Positions 30,050 to 33,958 of a stretch of 64,000 nt of DNA are shown in pieces. The notes under the pieces are model-generated. The model ran no database searches. It was not told the origin of the DNA and worked only from the letters and a program-made list of their open reading frames with translations. A program made the position numbers and the translations under genes. Numbering within the stretch: the first letter of the stretch is position 1; the number at the start of each line of letters is the position of its first letter. Where the stretch lies: assembly GCF_030142045.1 (NCBI RefSeq), contig NZ_CP126242.1:2542001-2606000 (forward strand), in the 5' to 3' direction. The stretch comes from Arthrobacter sp. zg-Y919 (GTDB lineage: Bacteria > Actinomycetota > Actinomycetes > Actinomycetales > Micrococcaceae).

Positions 30050-30192
30050 CCACCTAGTTTCCCGGAGCCCTGACTCACCCGTGCCTGCCGCGATACGCTG
30101 AACACCCGGCTGCGGAGGCGCCCACGGCCAGGTTCGACGCCGGTGGCGCACCCGCCCAGCCGCCTCACGACACCAACACTGAGCAGGCGGAC

Positions 30193-30876
30193 ATGACTAC
30201 ACCCGAGAACACACCCGAGCCAGGCCCCGGGCAGAACTACCCGACCAATCCGACCGGCCCCCTGGGCTCCGGTGGACCCATGGGCCCCGGCACCGGACCC
30301 GGCACGGGACCCGGCGCTCGTCCCGAGCCCCAGTACGGCCAGTATGCTCCAGGGCCAGACCCCTACGGCCAGCAGGCGGCCCAGCCCGCCTATGCCTATC
30401 AGCCTGGAGCAGCCAAACCGGCAAAGGGACCGGCCCCGCGCGAAGTAATCACCGGCTTCTGGCTCATTATCGCTGCGGGCGTCTTGAGCTTTATCAATAA
30501 CGTCATCACCTCGTTCAGCCTGCCTTCCCTCATGACTTCCGAGGAGCAGGAGGCCTTCTCCGGTGTAGGCGTAGACGAACAGAGCCTGAACTCCTTCCTG
30601 GTTTCCTTCGGCATTGTCGTAGCGCTGATGGGCCTGGGCGTTTACGTGCTGATTGCGTTCTTTGTCCGGCGGGGAAAGAACTGGGCCCGCGTCCTGGGAA
30701 CCGTATTCGCCGCCTTTTCATTGATTGGGATCTTCACCATGCTGGGCGCCTACTTCACGTCGCCGCTGAGCTTGATCTCCCTCGCTTCCAGCCTGGCTGG
30801 TATTGCAGGGATTGTGATGCTTTACCTGAAGCCGTCCAACCCGTACTTCCGCACGGCACCGCTGTACCCGTACTGA
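30193..30876 (+). CDS. Pro/Gly-rich N-terminus plus four-helix membrane protein
   Basis: A 227-residue protein of unknown function. Residues 1-80 are a disordered Pro/Gly/Tyr/Gln-rich cytoplasmic segment with GPGTGPGTGPG repeats and PYGQQAAQPAYAYQPG, common in actinobacterial membrane proteins. Four transmembrane helices follow (ITGFWLIIAAGVLSFINNVI; FLVSFGIVVALMGLGVYVLIAFF; ARVLGTVFAAFSLIGIFTMLGAYF; LASSLAGIAGIVMLYL), with a conserved-looking basic loop VRRGKNWARVLG and the final motif SNPYF. The C-terminal domain of the next gene is built the same way (RDRRRWARIVTAVLAG), so the two may be distant paralogues. Confidence 0.75.
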   Translation: MTTPENTPEPGPGQNYPTNPTGPLGSGGPMGPGTGPGTGPGARPEPQYGQYAPGPDPYGQQAAQPAYAYQPGAAKPAKGPAPREVITGFWLIIAAGVLSFINNVITSFSLPSLMTSEEQEAFSGVGVDEQSLNSFLVSFGIVVALMGLGVYVLIAFFVRRGKNWARVLGTVFAAFSLIGIFTMLGAYFTSPLSLISLASSLAGIAGIVMLYLKPSNPYFRTAPLYPY

Positions 30877-30898
30877 GTCGACCGCGCAGAAAATGCCC

Positions 30899-30929
30899 GA
30901 AAGTCCCGCCGGTCTCCGGCGGGACTTTC
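30899..30929 (+). terminator. Terminator-like hairpin
   Basis: GAAAGTCCCGCCGG pairs with CCGGCGGGACTTTC around a 3-nt loop. Only a short T stretch lies within the stem end. It separates the two membrane-protein genes. Confidence 0.8.
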
Positions 30930-31020
30930 CGCTTACCGGACCAGGTTCGGCACTGGAGGGGTCACACGCGGGTCCAGCCCGCGTAGCGTTGTTTTCTCGC
31001 CCGGCGGTGCTTTGATTCGC

Positions 31021-32871
31021 ATGACTGCCGGAGGGTGCCGTTCCGCCGTGAAGGGGATGACCGTGGCAGCACTGCTTCCGAACCCGCAACAACAAAAATC
31101 AGGCACGCCGTTGCAGTATCCAGAGCAGTTGACCGAACCGCCGGGATCCGGCCCACCCCTCCCGGATCCGCCGCCCTATCCGCCGTCCGCCGCCGCGGAC
31201 ATCCCATCGGTTATTGCCCCGGGCCGCACTGCTGGCACCCGGATGGCAGCCAGGCACGTTTCGGGCACCGCCCGCGGGGAGCACGCCGTCTATCTTTGGC
31301 TCCGGGCCGGTTGGGTGGGCTTCTTCCTCTGGGTTGGAACGGCAATACGCGGCGTCTATGCCTGGCTCCGGACAGGGGTGCAGGGAGTCTATGCCTGGCT
31401 GCGCGTCGGCATGCAGGGCCTTTATGGGTGGCTGCGCATCGGCGGGCAGGGCCTTTATGGGTGGCTGCGCTCCGGCATACTCAGCGCTTATCGCAGGGTC
31501 CGGGCGGGAGGGCAGGCTGCATCTGAATTCGCACGGACCCGAGCGCACGTAGCGGCCCGCAGCGTGCGGGCGGGGACCGACCGTGTCCTCTCCGGTGCAC
31601 AGACCGCTTCAGCCCGGGTCCACACCGGAGCGAGAACCACGTCCCGCCGGGCGGTGGCAGGCGCCCACGCTGTCTCCACGCAGGTCCAGACCGGTGCACA
31701 CGCCGTCTCCACCGGGGTCCAAACCGGTGCACGCGCCGTGTCCACCGGAGCCCGGACGGGCGCCCACGCCGTCTCCACCGGGGCTCAAACAGCCGCGCAA
31801 GCCGTCTCCAACGGGGTCCAAACCGGTGCACGCGCCGTGTCCACCGGAGCCCGGACGGGTGCCCACGTTGTATCCACGCAGGTCCAGACGGGCGCCCACG
31901 CCGTCTCGACCCGGGCTCAGGCCGGTGCGCGCGCCGTCTCAACCGGGGTCCAAACCGGCGCACGTGCCGTGTCCACCGGAGCCCGGACGGGTGCCCACGC
32001 CGTCTCCACGCAGGTCCAGGCAGGAGCACACGCCGTCTCCAACGGGGCTCAAACCGCCGCCCACGCTGTCTCGACCCGGGCTCAGGCCGGAGCCCACGCA
32101 GTGTCCAACGGGGCTCAAACCGCCGCGCACGCCGTCTCCAAGGGGGTCCAAACGGGAGCAAGCGCCATCTCCACTCAGGTCCAGGCCGGTGCGCACGCAG
32201 TGTCCACCCGGGTCCAGGCCGGCGCCCACGCAGTCTCCACGGCCGCCCACGCCGCGGCTGTCCGTGTCCGTCTCGGAGCCATCCGGGTTGGCGCTGCTGT
32301 GCATTCCGCGGCCGTCCGGGTCCGGTCGTTGGCTCATGCCGCTTACGTTTGGGTCCGGGCAGGGGTCCGGGCCGTACAGCGCCGGCTGCCTGCGAACACC
32401 GGCAACCCGGTGCCCTCGATCGCGACAGCGTGTACCTTCGTCGCAGGCGCCGGACTGGTGAACCTTGGAAACACTGTCTCAGTCGTTTCGCGTATGCCCG
32501 TGCCGGACGCGTTGCCGTCGTCCATTGCCCTTCTCCAGCGGTACGGAGTGACGGGAGCCCAATACGGCAAGGTCCTGGTGGGCATTCAGATTGCTTATGC
32601 CCTGGTGGTCCTGGGAATCGCGCTCCTGCTTGCCGTCACTCTCCGCGACAGACGCCGCTGGGCACGGATAGTCACCGCGGTATTGGCGGGCACAGCACTG
32701 TTCTACGCCTTGAATGCAGGCACGGGAATGCAGGCCGCTGCGGCCGCCTTGGGAGCGGCAGGAGCGGCCATTACCTTCACGAAGGGGGCGGCTCCCTGGT
32801 TCCGCCCACGGCAACGCCTCCAGCCGCTTCCCGTGGACCCGGTCCAGGCCGATTCACCCCAGGACGCTTGA
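31021..32871 (+). CDS. Membrane protein with long 11-residue (hendecad) repeat domain
   Basis: I recognise no named family. The product is 616 residues from the ATG at 31021. Its start is uncertain: GTG 31048 lies 12 nt after GGAGGG and ATG 31057 is also possible. Layout: a Pro-rich N-terminus (about 1-60); six 11-residue units of the form Y-x-W-L-R-x-G-x-x-G-x (about 91-157); a transitional basic stretch; eighteen units of the form (V/A)-Q-T-G-A-H-A-V-S-T-G (residues 211-408); four Ala/Val/Arg units ending in YVWVRAGVRAV; then a membrane domain (about 464-600) with three or four helices and the loop RDRRRWARIV. A strict 11-residue period gives a straight amphipathic helix, as in phasins, perilipins or synuclein, which coat membranes or granules. 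That role is inference. A terminator-like hairpin precedes it and rex converges on it. Confidence 0.72.
   Translation: MTAGGCRSAVKGMTVAALLPNPQQQKSGTPLQYPEQLTEPPGSGPPLPDPPPYPPSAAADIPSVIAPGRTAGTRMAARHVSGTARGEHAVYLWLRAGWVGFFLWVGTAIRGVYAWLRTGVQGVYAWLRVGMQGLYGWLRIGGQGLYGWLRSGILSAYRRVRAGGQAASEFARTRAHVAARSVRAGTDRVLSGAQTASARVHTGARTTSRRAVAGAHAVSTQVQTGAHAVSTGVQTGARAVSTGARTGAHAVSTGAQTAAQAVSNGVQTGARAVSTGARTGAHVVSTQVQTGAHAVSTRAQAGARAVSTGVQTGARAVSTGARTGAHAVSTQVQAGAHAVSNGAQTAAHAVSTRAQAGAHAVSNGAQTAAHAVSKGVQTGASAISTQVQAGAHAVSTRVQAGAHAVSTAAHAAAVRVRLGAIRVGAAVHSAAVRVRSLAHAAYVWVRAGVRAVQRRLPANTGNPVPSIATACTFVAGAGLVNLGNTVSVVSRMPVPDALPSSIALLQRYGVTGAQYGKVLVGIQIAYALVVLGIALLLAVTLRDRRRWARIVTAVLAGTALFYALNAGTGMQAAAAALGAAGAAITFTKGAAPWFRPRQRLQPLPVDPVQADSPQDA
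31651..32244 (+). repeat. Eighteen tandem 33-bp coding repeats
   Basis: Each 33-bp unit encodes one 11-residue repeat of the gene at 31021. A two-unit block (VQTGARAVSTG followed by ARTGAHAVSTG or a close variant) occurs three times, at units 3-4, 6-7 and 10-11, with nearly identical DNA, indicating recent higher-order duplication or gene conversion. Confidence 0.92.
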
Positions 32872-32882
32872 GCGGAGCCCTC

Positions 32883-33641
32883 CTAGCGGGGCAGGCGGGC
32901 GCGGGCTGCGATGTCCGAGACCTGGGAGCGCTGTGCGTGGTAGGCAAGGATCTGCAGTTCGGTTGCCATGTCGACCTTCCGGATCTGGACATTCTCCGGG
33001 GCCTGGAGCACCACCGGGGCAAAGCTGAGAATACTGGTGATACCGGATGCCACCAGCCGGTCACAGAGATCCTGGGCAACTTCGGCGGGCACCGAAAGTA
33101 CCGCCATGTTCGTCTTCGTCTTCGTCAGCACCGTTTCAAGGGACTCCACCGGGCTGATCTTCAACCAACCGACTTCCTGGCCGATCACCATCGGGTCCGC
33201 GTCGAACAGTGCCACTACTTCGAATCCCCGGGAGCCGAAACCGGGGTACCCGGCCAGGGCACGGCCCAGGTTGCCGGCACCTACTATGGCCACGCGCCAG
33301 TTCTGGGTCAGGCCAAGCGCCGCGGAAATCTGCCCGCTCAAATACAGCACGTCGTACCCCACGCCGCGGGTTCCGTAGGACCCGAGGTAGGACAGATCCT
33401 TCCGCAGCTTGGGGGAATTCACGCCGGCCGCTTCGGCCAGTTCGTCCGATGACACCCGCTCGACGCCGTCGGAGAGTAAGGCGGACAGCGCGCGCAGGTA
33501 AATGGTCAGACGGGCCAGCGACGCCGGCGGTATATGCCGCTGGGCACCGGTCCCGGACGACGGCGTTCGGGGTGGCTGGGTGCTGTTTTCGGTTTCCCGT
33601 TCCGGCGCGGTGCGCTCCGAACCGGCTCCTTCGGGTGCCAT
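32883..33641 (-). CDS. rex: Redox-sensing transcriptional repressor Rex
   Basis: Rex senses the NADH/NAD+ ratio and represses respiratory and fermentative genes until NADH accumulates. The 252-residue protein has an N-terminal winged helix (IPPASLARLTIYLRALSALL; VNSPKLRKDLSYLGSYGTRG) and a Rossmann domain with VAIVGAGNLGRALAGYPGF and a C-terminal swapped helix. A variable N-terminal extension of about 38 residues precedes it. The ATG at 33641 shares its A with the stop of the glutaredoxin gene (TGATG), so the pair is coupled; a GTG one codon upstream is possible. I did not find a clear Rex-box palindrome in the window. Confidence 0.95.
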   Translation of the reverse strand: MAPEGAGSERTAPERETENSTQPPRTPSSGTGAQRHIPPASLARLTIYLRALSALLSDGVERVSSDELAEAAGVNSPKLRKDLSYLGSYGTRGVGYDVLYLSGQISAALGLTQNWRVAIVGAGNLGRALAGYPGFGSRGFEVVALFDADPMVIGQEVGWLKISPVESLETVLTKTKTNMAVLSVPAEVAQDLCDRLVASGITSILSFAPVVLQAPENVQIRKVDMATELQILAYHAQRSQVSDIAARARLPR

Positions 33642-33892
33642 CACGCTCCCAACAGGCGCCGCAGCCGGGTTTCGTCGATTGTCCAGAAGTCCCGCTGAAC
33701 TCCGTCAATGAACAACACCGGGATCTCCTCCCCAAAGCGCGCGGCAAGATCCGGGTGATCTTCGGCGCTGCGCTCCTGCCAGACCATTCCGAGCTCCTCC
33801 CCCACACGGTTGAGCACCAGCCGTGCGTCCTCACACAGGTGGCATCCCTGTCGGGTAAGAAGGACAACTTCCGGTCCGGCGGATTCACTCAT
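33641..33892 (-). CDS. Glutaredoxin-like thiol-disulfide protein
   Basis: An 83-residue glutaredoxin-family (DUF836-type) protein with the redox motif TRQGCHLCEDARLVL (CXXC), the cis-Pro segment EIPVLFIDGVQRDFW and a short C-terminal helix. It probably reduces protein disulfides or mixed thiols in the cytosol. Translation starts at ATG 33892, and it shares an operon with rex; the pairing links thiol and NADH redox sensing. Only 66 nt separate it from the divergent HAD gene. Confidence 0.88.
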   Translation of the reverse strand: MSESAGPEVVLLTRQGCHLCEDARLVLNRVGEELGMVWQERSAEDHPDLAARFGEEIPVLFIDGVQRDFWTIDETRLRRLLGA

Positions 33893-33958
33893 AGGTCCAA
33901 AGTATCCCCAATATGACGGATTTCCGCGCTCGGACCGGGTTTTGCGTAGACTCGGACC

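Follow-up and report, generated by a model that had tools for sequence, protein, structure and literature searches.

A 602-residue protein encoded in the genome of Arthrobacter sp. zg-Y919, within a stretch of 64,000 nucleotides (contig NZ_CP126242.1; hereafter the window), combines 33 uninterrupted eleven-residue units (hendecads) with a C-terminal membrane domain. The array is likely to be an alpha helix, and it is suggested here, at slightly less than an even chance, that the gene product is a giant amphipathic helix tethered to the cell membrane and lying flat against its inner face in a manner similar to perilipin-4 (Plin4).

The features described in the initial annotation of this DNA were all confirmed: the reading frame, W-type units resembling YAWLRTGVQGV, A-type units resembling VQTGAHAVSTG, Ala/Val/Arg units at the end of the array and, after them, a membrane domain (Table 1). 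Behind the N-terminal motif MAALLPNPQQQK come a Pro-rich segment and the 33 units, and about 160 amino acids make up the C-terminal domain. Translation had been placed at ATG 31021, a start that is unlikely because the codon aligned with GTG 31063 is ATG in 11 of 11 orthologs, 3' of the conserved GTGAAGGGG ribosome site in the upstream DNA alignment; GTG 31063 is the most likely start. The array runs without a phase break over 362-363 residues (77 to 438-439), so that the original count of about 24 repeats has to be raised to 33 and the length of about 300 angstroms to about 540 angstroms (1.5 angstroms per residue). Periods of 33, 99 and 132 bp were reported by Tandem Repeats Finder. The window protein keeps strictly to the 11-residue period, whereas the translations of three orthologs read as units of 40 residues (G016 and G026) or 29 residues (G025).

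Table 1. Features of the PAR - array gene - rex region; positions are those of the window, and the sorting of the hendecads into four types is our own.
Feature	Position	Strand	Details
PAR, paralogous small membrane protein	30193..30876	+	N-terminus Pro/Gly/Gln-rich (Pro 24% of first 88 aa)
G+C-rich hairpin 3' of PAR, perhaps transcription end	30900..30928	+	Seen by eye; absent from terminator scan list
Promoter-like element GTCACA-N17-TAGCGT	30961..30989	+	Found via ortholog alignment
Shine-Dalgarno AAGGGG	31051..31056	+	Conserved GTGAAGGGG block, 12-way upstream alignment
Hendecad-array membrane protein gene	31063..32871	+	602 aa, GTG start
Conserved N-terminal MAALLPNP motif and Pro-rich segment	31063..31290	+	Residues 1-76
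W-type hendecads (6)	31291..31488	+	Residues 77-142; hydrophobic, aromatic 21%
Transitional hendecads (5)	31489..31653	+	Residues 143-197
A-type hendecads (18)	31654..32247	+	Residues 198-395; without aromatic, acidic or Pro residues
Ala/Val/Arg hendecads (4)	32248..32379	+	Residues 396-439; last unit YVWVRAGVRAVQ
C-terminal membrane domain	32377..32868	+	AlphaFold (low confidence), Kyte-Doolittle scan, family alignment
Modelled helices of C-terminal domain	32410-32490, 32554-32640, 32659-32715, 32725-32778	+	AlphaFold, low confidence
rex, redox-sensing repressor; convergent neighbour, synteny anchor	32883..33644	-	NCBIfam NF003992, 346.9 bits (cut-off 226)

Across the 12 array-bearing orthologs, 4,051 array positions include no proline and 14 acidic residues, and each array has a net charge of +25 to +36. 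Proline makes up 172 of 976 residues (17.6%) in the N-terminal parts of the same proteins and 11-22% when the window's array DNA is translated in its five alternative frames. An 11-residue periodicity free of proline over long stretches, as in 11-mer lipid-surface helices, was thus found over all 33 units. The A-type units contain about two Gly each, have small core residues and a narrow Val/Ala stripe, and in the window protein they carry a charge of about 1.1 per 18 residues. His accounts for 5-11% of the array past its first 66 residues in all 12 arrays and occupies one A-unit position in 12 of the 18 units of the window protein, which suggests a pH-sensitive polar face.

The helical character of the array was explored by periodicity analysis, structure modelling and the lengths of alignment gaps. 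Hydrophobicity over the whole array peaks at 98.4-98.7 degrees in 10 of the 12 orthologs and at 162 degrees in G026 and G016. Past the first 77 array residues, Arg and Lys are located opposite the hydrophobic face at 98 degrees in every ortholog (mean cosine -0.19 to -0.71 vs about -0.08 for shuffles, sd about 0.12), as is His in 10 of 12. For Arg, segregation at the helix angle is just about 1-2 sd off shuffles in G017, G026, G009 and G010, and the beta angle fits better in G017 and G026. When the 11 positions were permuted within units, the helical hydrophobic moment was unexceptional for the W units (P 0.28) and the A units (P 0.16), and exceptional for the mean over all 33 units only (P 0.034). 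A beta-like (5/11-like) harmonic exceeds the helical one past the first 66 array residues in five of the 12 proteins (slightly in the window protein, and in G021, G017, G026 and G016), and in windows of 36 residues it wins about as often (25 vs 24 in the window protein). Taken alone, the amphipathicity statistics are weak; the 98-degree peak was dropped as sole proof of a helix, since the beta-like harmonic competes. In the helical-wheel analysis that had been proposed to confirm the hendecad phase, charge lies opposite the hydrophobic face in 12 of 12 orthologs, but single unit types are not significant and the beta-like harmonic competes.

Structure prediction, to which the choice between helix and disorder had been left, returned helix at low confidence for the window protein and one ortholog. 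AlphaFold models of the window protein contain helices at residues 74-234, 242-309, 316-395 and 413-442, and those of the G017 ortholog at 93-276 and 284-423, with no strands in either (mean pLDDT 48 and 44, respectively; 36-58 for the window protein's A part). G017 is among the orthologs with the most beta-like spectrum.

In MAFFT alignments of eight ortholog pairs, which were chosen by us and are not independent, all 23 array gaps measure 4, 7, 11, 22, 29, 40 or 44 residues, gap placement in repeats being uncertain, above all for G016/G026. Gaps in the N- and C-terminal parts of the same pairs measure 4, 7 and 40 too, but also 1, 2, 3, 5, 10, 19 and 36. Over the compared part, the A. zhangbolii protein P0003 and G026 (L040:1575-3101) differ by 102 array residues and are otherwise identical; this difference of 28.0 helical turns possibly represents either real variation in unit number or a short-read assembly collapse. 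These 102 residues, the array gap lengths and the unit lengths all fall within about 0.1 of whole turns (3.64 residues per turn). Gaps that are multiples of 11 are a trivial consequence of the repeat unit, which does not account for the other gap lengths.

A lipid-facing amphipathic helix is the leading but unproved use of such a structure. Hendecads are a standard coiled-coil period, and it is conceivable, if unlikely, that the array is instead a coiled coil or helical-bundle rod, copies of which would pack through the Val/Ala stripe into a membrane-anchored spacer or filament off the lipid. The narrowness of that stripe and the long helices of the AlphaFold models agree with such packing, and the near-whole-turn gaps suit a coiled coil and a membrane helix equally. 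Array helices placed side by side would, however, repel each other, because they are like-charged (25-36 net positive charges) with hardly any acidic residue to balance; moreover, a core of small residues with about two Gly per A unit speaks against it, and the W units (mean H 0.67-0.83 in the first four 33-residue windows of the window protein) are rather hydrophobic for a soluble rod.

The C-terminal domain is modelled by AlphaFold with four membrane helices at low confidence, and a 19-residue Kyte-Doolittle scan detects three hydrophobic segments for the window protein, while each of the 11 orthologs has three or four. The loop that follows segment two has a charge of +2 to +4, and no other loop is as positive in 10 of the 12 proteins (a tie in G026; not so in G016), although the loop charges differ little (+2, +2, +4 and +1 in the window protein). 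More positive loops face the cytoplasm according to the positive-inside rule, by which the array and both ends of the protein would be cytoplasmic, the contrasts being small. Within the first 88 array residues, the W-type start reaches a Kyte-Doolittle mean over 19 residues of 1.24 in the window protein, and for G028 and G026 the figures are 1.54 and 1.68, values that leave room for a transmembrane role in the latter two. Thirteen Pfam models match the C-terminal domain at E values up to 0.1, each from 1-6 of 19 members (best COX1, 9.7e-5 in two), and the domain appears to have no consistent Pfam family.

In all 29 genomes of the genus, the slot flanked by PAR and rex contains a gene with this C-terminal domain. 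The concern that it might be absent or frame-broken in relatives was not substantiated as far as the gene is concerned, which is open through the array in the 12 genomes that have one; the array itself is missing from the other 17. In the 12, a long array is located between a proline-rich N-terminal part of 70-98 residues and the membrane domain. In 13 of the 17 array-less genes, a soluble N-terminal part of 76-307 residues with 16-24% Pro leads straight into the membrane domain; of the other four, two (G006 and G011) were read by eye, one (G014) is divergent and one, G022 (L045:2444-2995), is out of frame before the domain and may be frame-broken or misassembled. The array-less slot gene of G018 (L046:1803-3143) has its own acidic Pro/Glu/Thr repeat expansion, with a net charge of -23 over 307 residues, opposite to that of the hendecad arrays.

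Since the proline-rich part occurs both with and without the array, the latter is an addition and does not replace that part. A tree of Rex plus PAR groups the 12 array bearers in one clade (support 98/95) in which one change suffices, and a single gain is thus the simplest reading; with Rex alone the fork between the 12 and the other genomes stays open. Gain would also be the simpler direction because none of eight loci read in other genera of the family, picked for long frames or good scores among the matches listed, contains an array; only Pro/Gln/Gly-rich relatives were found there. Weak array-only matches in five genomes of the order (G400, G404, G407, G416 and G526) were taken as low-complexity chance, a verdict based on translations in the match frame at four of the five loci (G400, G404, G416 and G526).

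The neighboring PAR protein was matched by the C-terminal domain query in its own genome (E 1.7e-5), with cross-matches in most same-genus loci, and in Pfam it matches only below cut-off (DUF7144, E 9.9e-5). Upstream of the slot gene, by about 100 nucleotides, the exact element GTCACA-N17-TAGCGT with its 17-nucleotide spacer was found in 27 of the 29 genus genomes (missing in G014 and G011), ahead of genes with and without an array and with a diverged spacer sequence; it was seen in none of the eight loci of other genera. It occurs once in the genome of the window protein against 1.1 expected, that is, about chance, and a sigma-70 promoter scan of positions 30050-33900 gave no hit. Conservation of the element in these 27 genomes contrasts with the protein encoded downstream, which in 12 of them has gained an entire domain. 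No Rex operator was detected near the gene, the window containing eight matches with up to two mismatches compared with 14.7 expected.

Among the 12 orthologs the array spans 244-395 residues, or 22 to 36 unit lengths, in agreement with the conserved architecture and variable unit number that had been expected. The 18 A-type units differ by 0.12, 0.23 and 0.48 at codon positions 1, 2 and 3, and mean dN and dS between them are 0.20 and 1.01 (143 of 153 unit pairs that gave values). As the third position differs most, the array is the product of neither chance nor DNA slippage alone. In the eight ortholog pairs, dN/dS is 0.19-0.50 for the array, 0.14-0.74 for the C-terminal domain and 0.33-1.07 for the N-terminal part, and these ratios indicate that the array is under purifying selection.

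That the array is a nearly neutral spacer grown by slippage, for which any proline-free filler of variable length would suffice, is distinctly unlikely in our view. The differences in length between orthologs, perhaps the 102 residues that separate members of one species (short-read collapse being possible) and the 17 of 29 genus genomes that manage without an array would all be expected of such filler. They are opposed by the low array dN/dS, by a protein motif kept between units at dS of about 1, by the complete lack of Pro in all array positions and by the retention of the array in each of the clade's 12 members.

The lipid-binding potential of the array was evaluated with the Heliquest discriminant, for which the accessible part of the source gives a line of D 0.68, applied to the best window (PMC3189734). 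On this scale, the W part of the window protein has a mean D of 0.92, with 80% of its 18-residue windows above the line (37-100% across the 12 proteins), and the A-type units have a mean D of 0.54, below the line, with 28% of windows above it. The A part is rich in Val, Thr, Gly, Ser and Ala (muH 0.19, hydrophobic fraction 0.42, aromatic 0, charged 0.06). In the proposed mechanism, the array would fold into a single long 3-11-type alpha helix upon membrane contact; the Trp-rich hendecads at its start would insert deep into the membrane interface, and the 18 Ala/Val/Thr/Gly A-type units would provide weak binding repeated many times. On the cytoplasmic side, Arg and His of the polar face would contact the head groups of anionic phospholipids, with the other end pinned by the membrane domain at the C-terminus. 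The rod would then lie flat along the membrane's inner face and, like a bacterial Plin4, may tune local packing or curvature or exclude other proteins. A more specific reading, tentative and clearly less assured, is that the protein represents a new class: a once-gained, self-extending helix with a His/Arg face, pinned at both ends, that may coat the cytoplasmic membrane in a Plin4-like manner and change its length by whole turns.

A basic array could alternatively bind DNA or RNA and tether the nucleoid or ribosomes to the membrane, much as is reported for the Rhodococcus protein MLDS and lipid droplets, although MLDS is a protein in which we know of no hendecad array. This explanation ranks slightly below the spacer in probability. 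The net charge, the His content past the W units and a membrane anchor on the same chain would be appropriate for it. The charge density of the window's A-type units is nevertheless modest, the hydrophobic W units require a lipid or protein partner, and Pfam searches to E 1 retrieved no DNA-binding domain. MLDS provides the precedent of a lipid-surface DNA tether: the source, as far as available, describes an actinobacterial lipid-droplet protein that binds DNA and joins it to lipid droplets (PMC5504291). The array protein is set beside this droplet protein by description.

The full protein matched no Pfam model over cut-off and none in NCBIfam, and the claim that no family with this architecture is known holds for named families in these two collections. 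The gene had no match to E 0.1 in PHROGs and PADLOC, nor did PDB sequences give any to E 1. Protein searches with the full sequence, the C-terminal domain alone and a profile, each of which scored just the 8,000 candidates sharing most words, found only P0001, P0002 and P0003, one of them added by the profile. These public gene models (367, 379 and 363 residues) start inside the gene when judged against G021, G009 and G026; the first residue falls within the array in P0001 and P0002 and just ahead of it in P0003. No description of this protein was found among the literature matches listed (titles and abstract starts of open-licence papers).

The sole Pfam model that matches the full protein to E 1 is the apolipoprotein A1/A4/E domain (PF01442; E 0.32), with which it shares an 11-residue amphipathic periodicity, but the 11.1 bits are far below the gathering cut-off of 90, and apolipoproteins are secreted and rich in acidic residues, unlike the array protein. 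PAR and some slot or PAR-like genes match the small membrane proteins DUF7144/DUF6264 below cut-off; none exceeds it, and the PAR-like proteins read have no array. PARCEL repeats, tandem amphipathic repeats of microbial membrane proteins including one on an Arthrobacter plasmid, correspond in the text available to DUF285/TIGR02167 and have palindromic coding units (PMC2996958). The window protein gave no match to either model to E 1 in Pfam and NCBIfam, and just four imperfect inverted pairs of 15-20 nucleotides were found here.

A close parallel is Plin4, for which a partial text reports muH 0.257, hydrophobic fraction 0.35, aromatic 0.002 and charged 0.15, better binding by longer helices, and localization of a 12-unit construct also at the yeast cell periphery, tied by its authors to net positive charge (PMC5889406). 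As far as that text goes, both proteins have a very long, repetitive, net positive 11-mer-based helix whose long part is rich in Val, Thr and Gly, very poor in aromatics and weak in hydrophobic moment (PMC5889406). Plin4 is built of 33-mers, whereas the units here have 11 residues (in three orthologs 29 or 40); it also has a lower hydrophobic fraction and a higher charged fraction than the A part, and acidic residues that the array almost lacks. The present protein is, in addition, bacterial, with a Trp-rich start and a membrane domain; perilipin models gave no Pfam match to E 1, and WS/DGAT and PHA synthase were not found in the genus. A coat on storage granules (lipid droplets or PHA), as formed by phasins or perilipins, is very improbable despite the Plin4-like composition: the two storage enzymes sought were detected in 0 of 29 genus genomes (WS/DGAT, PF03007, vs 46 of 60 genomes drawn from the class, the named control genomes also being without it; PHA synthase, PF07167, with the Caulobacter control found), which favors the cytoplasmic membrane, and a bilayer would accommodate the C-terminal membrane domain better than a droplet would. 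Of the initially proposed membrane- or granule-surface helix, the long helix-like hendecad domain joined to a membrane domain is retained and the granule version is disfavored.

To our knowledge, giant amphipathic helices of 11-mer repeats are known chiefly from eukaryotes. If the proposal of a membrane-lying helix is true, one clade of Arthrobacter would possess a bacterial, membrane-tethered counterpart with a traceable birth, as sister genomes retain the array-less short form in the same slot and behind the same promoter-like element. This would constitute a natural experiment on the origin of a very large helical domain and on the small number of rules that bind it, namely no proline, no acid and whole turns. 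The modular array could allow the effects of length and charge on membrane packing, curvature and protein exclusion to be probed in a genetically simple setting.
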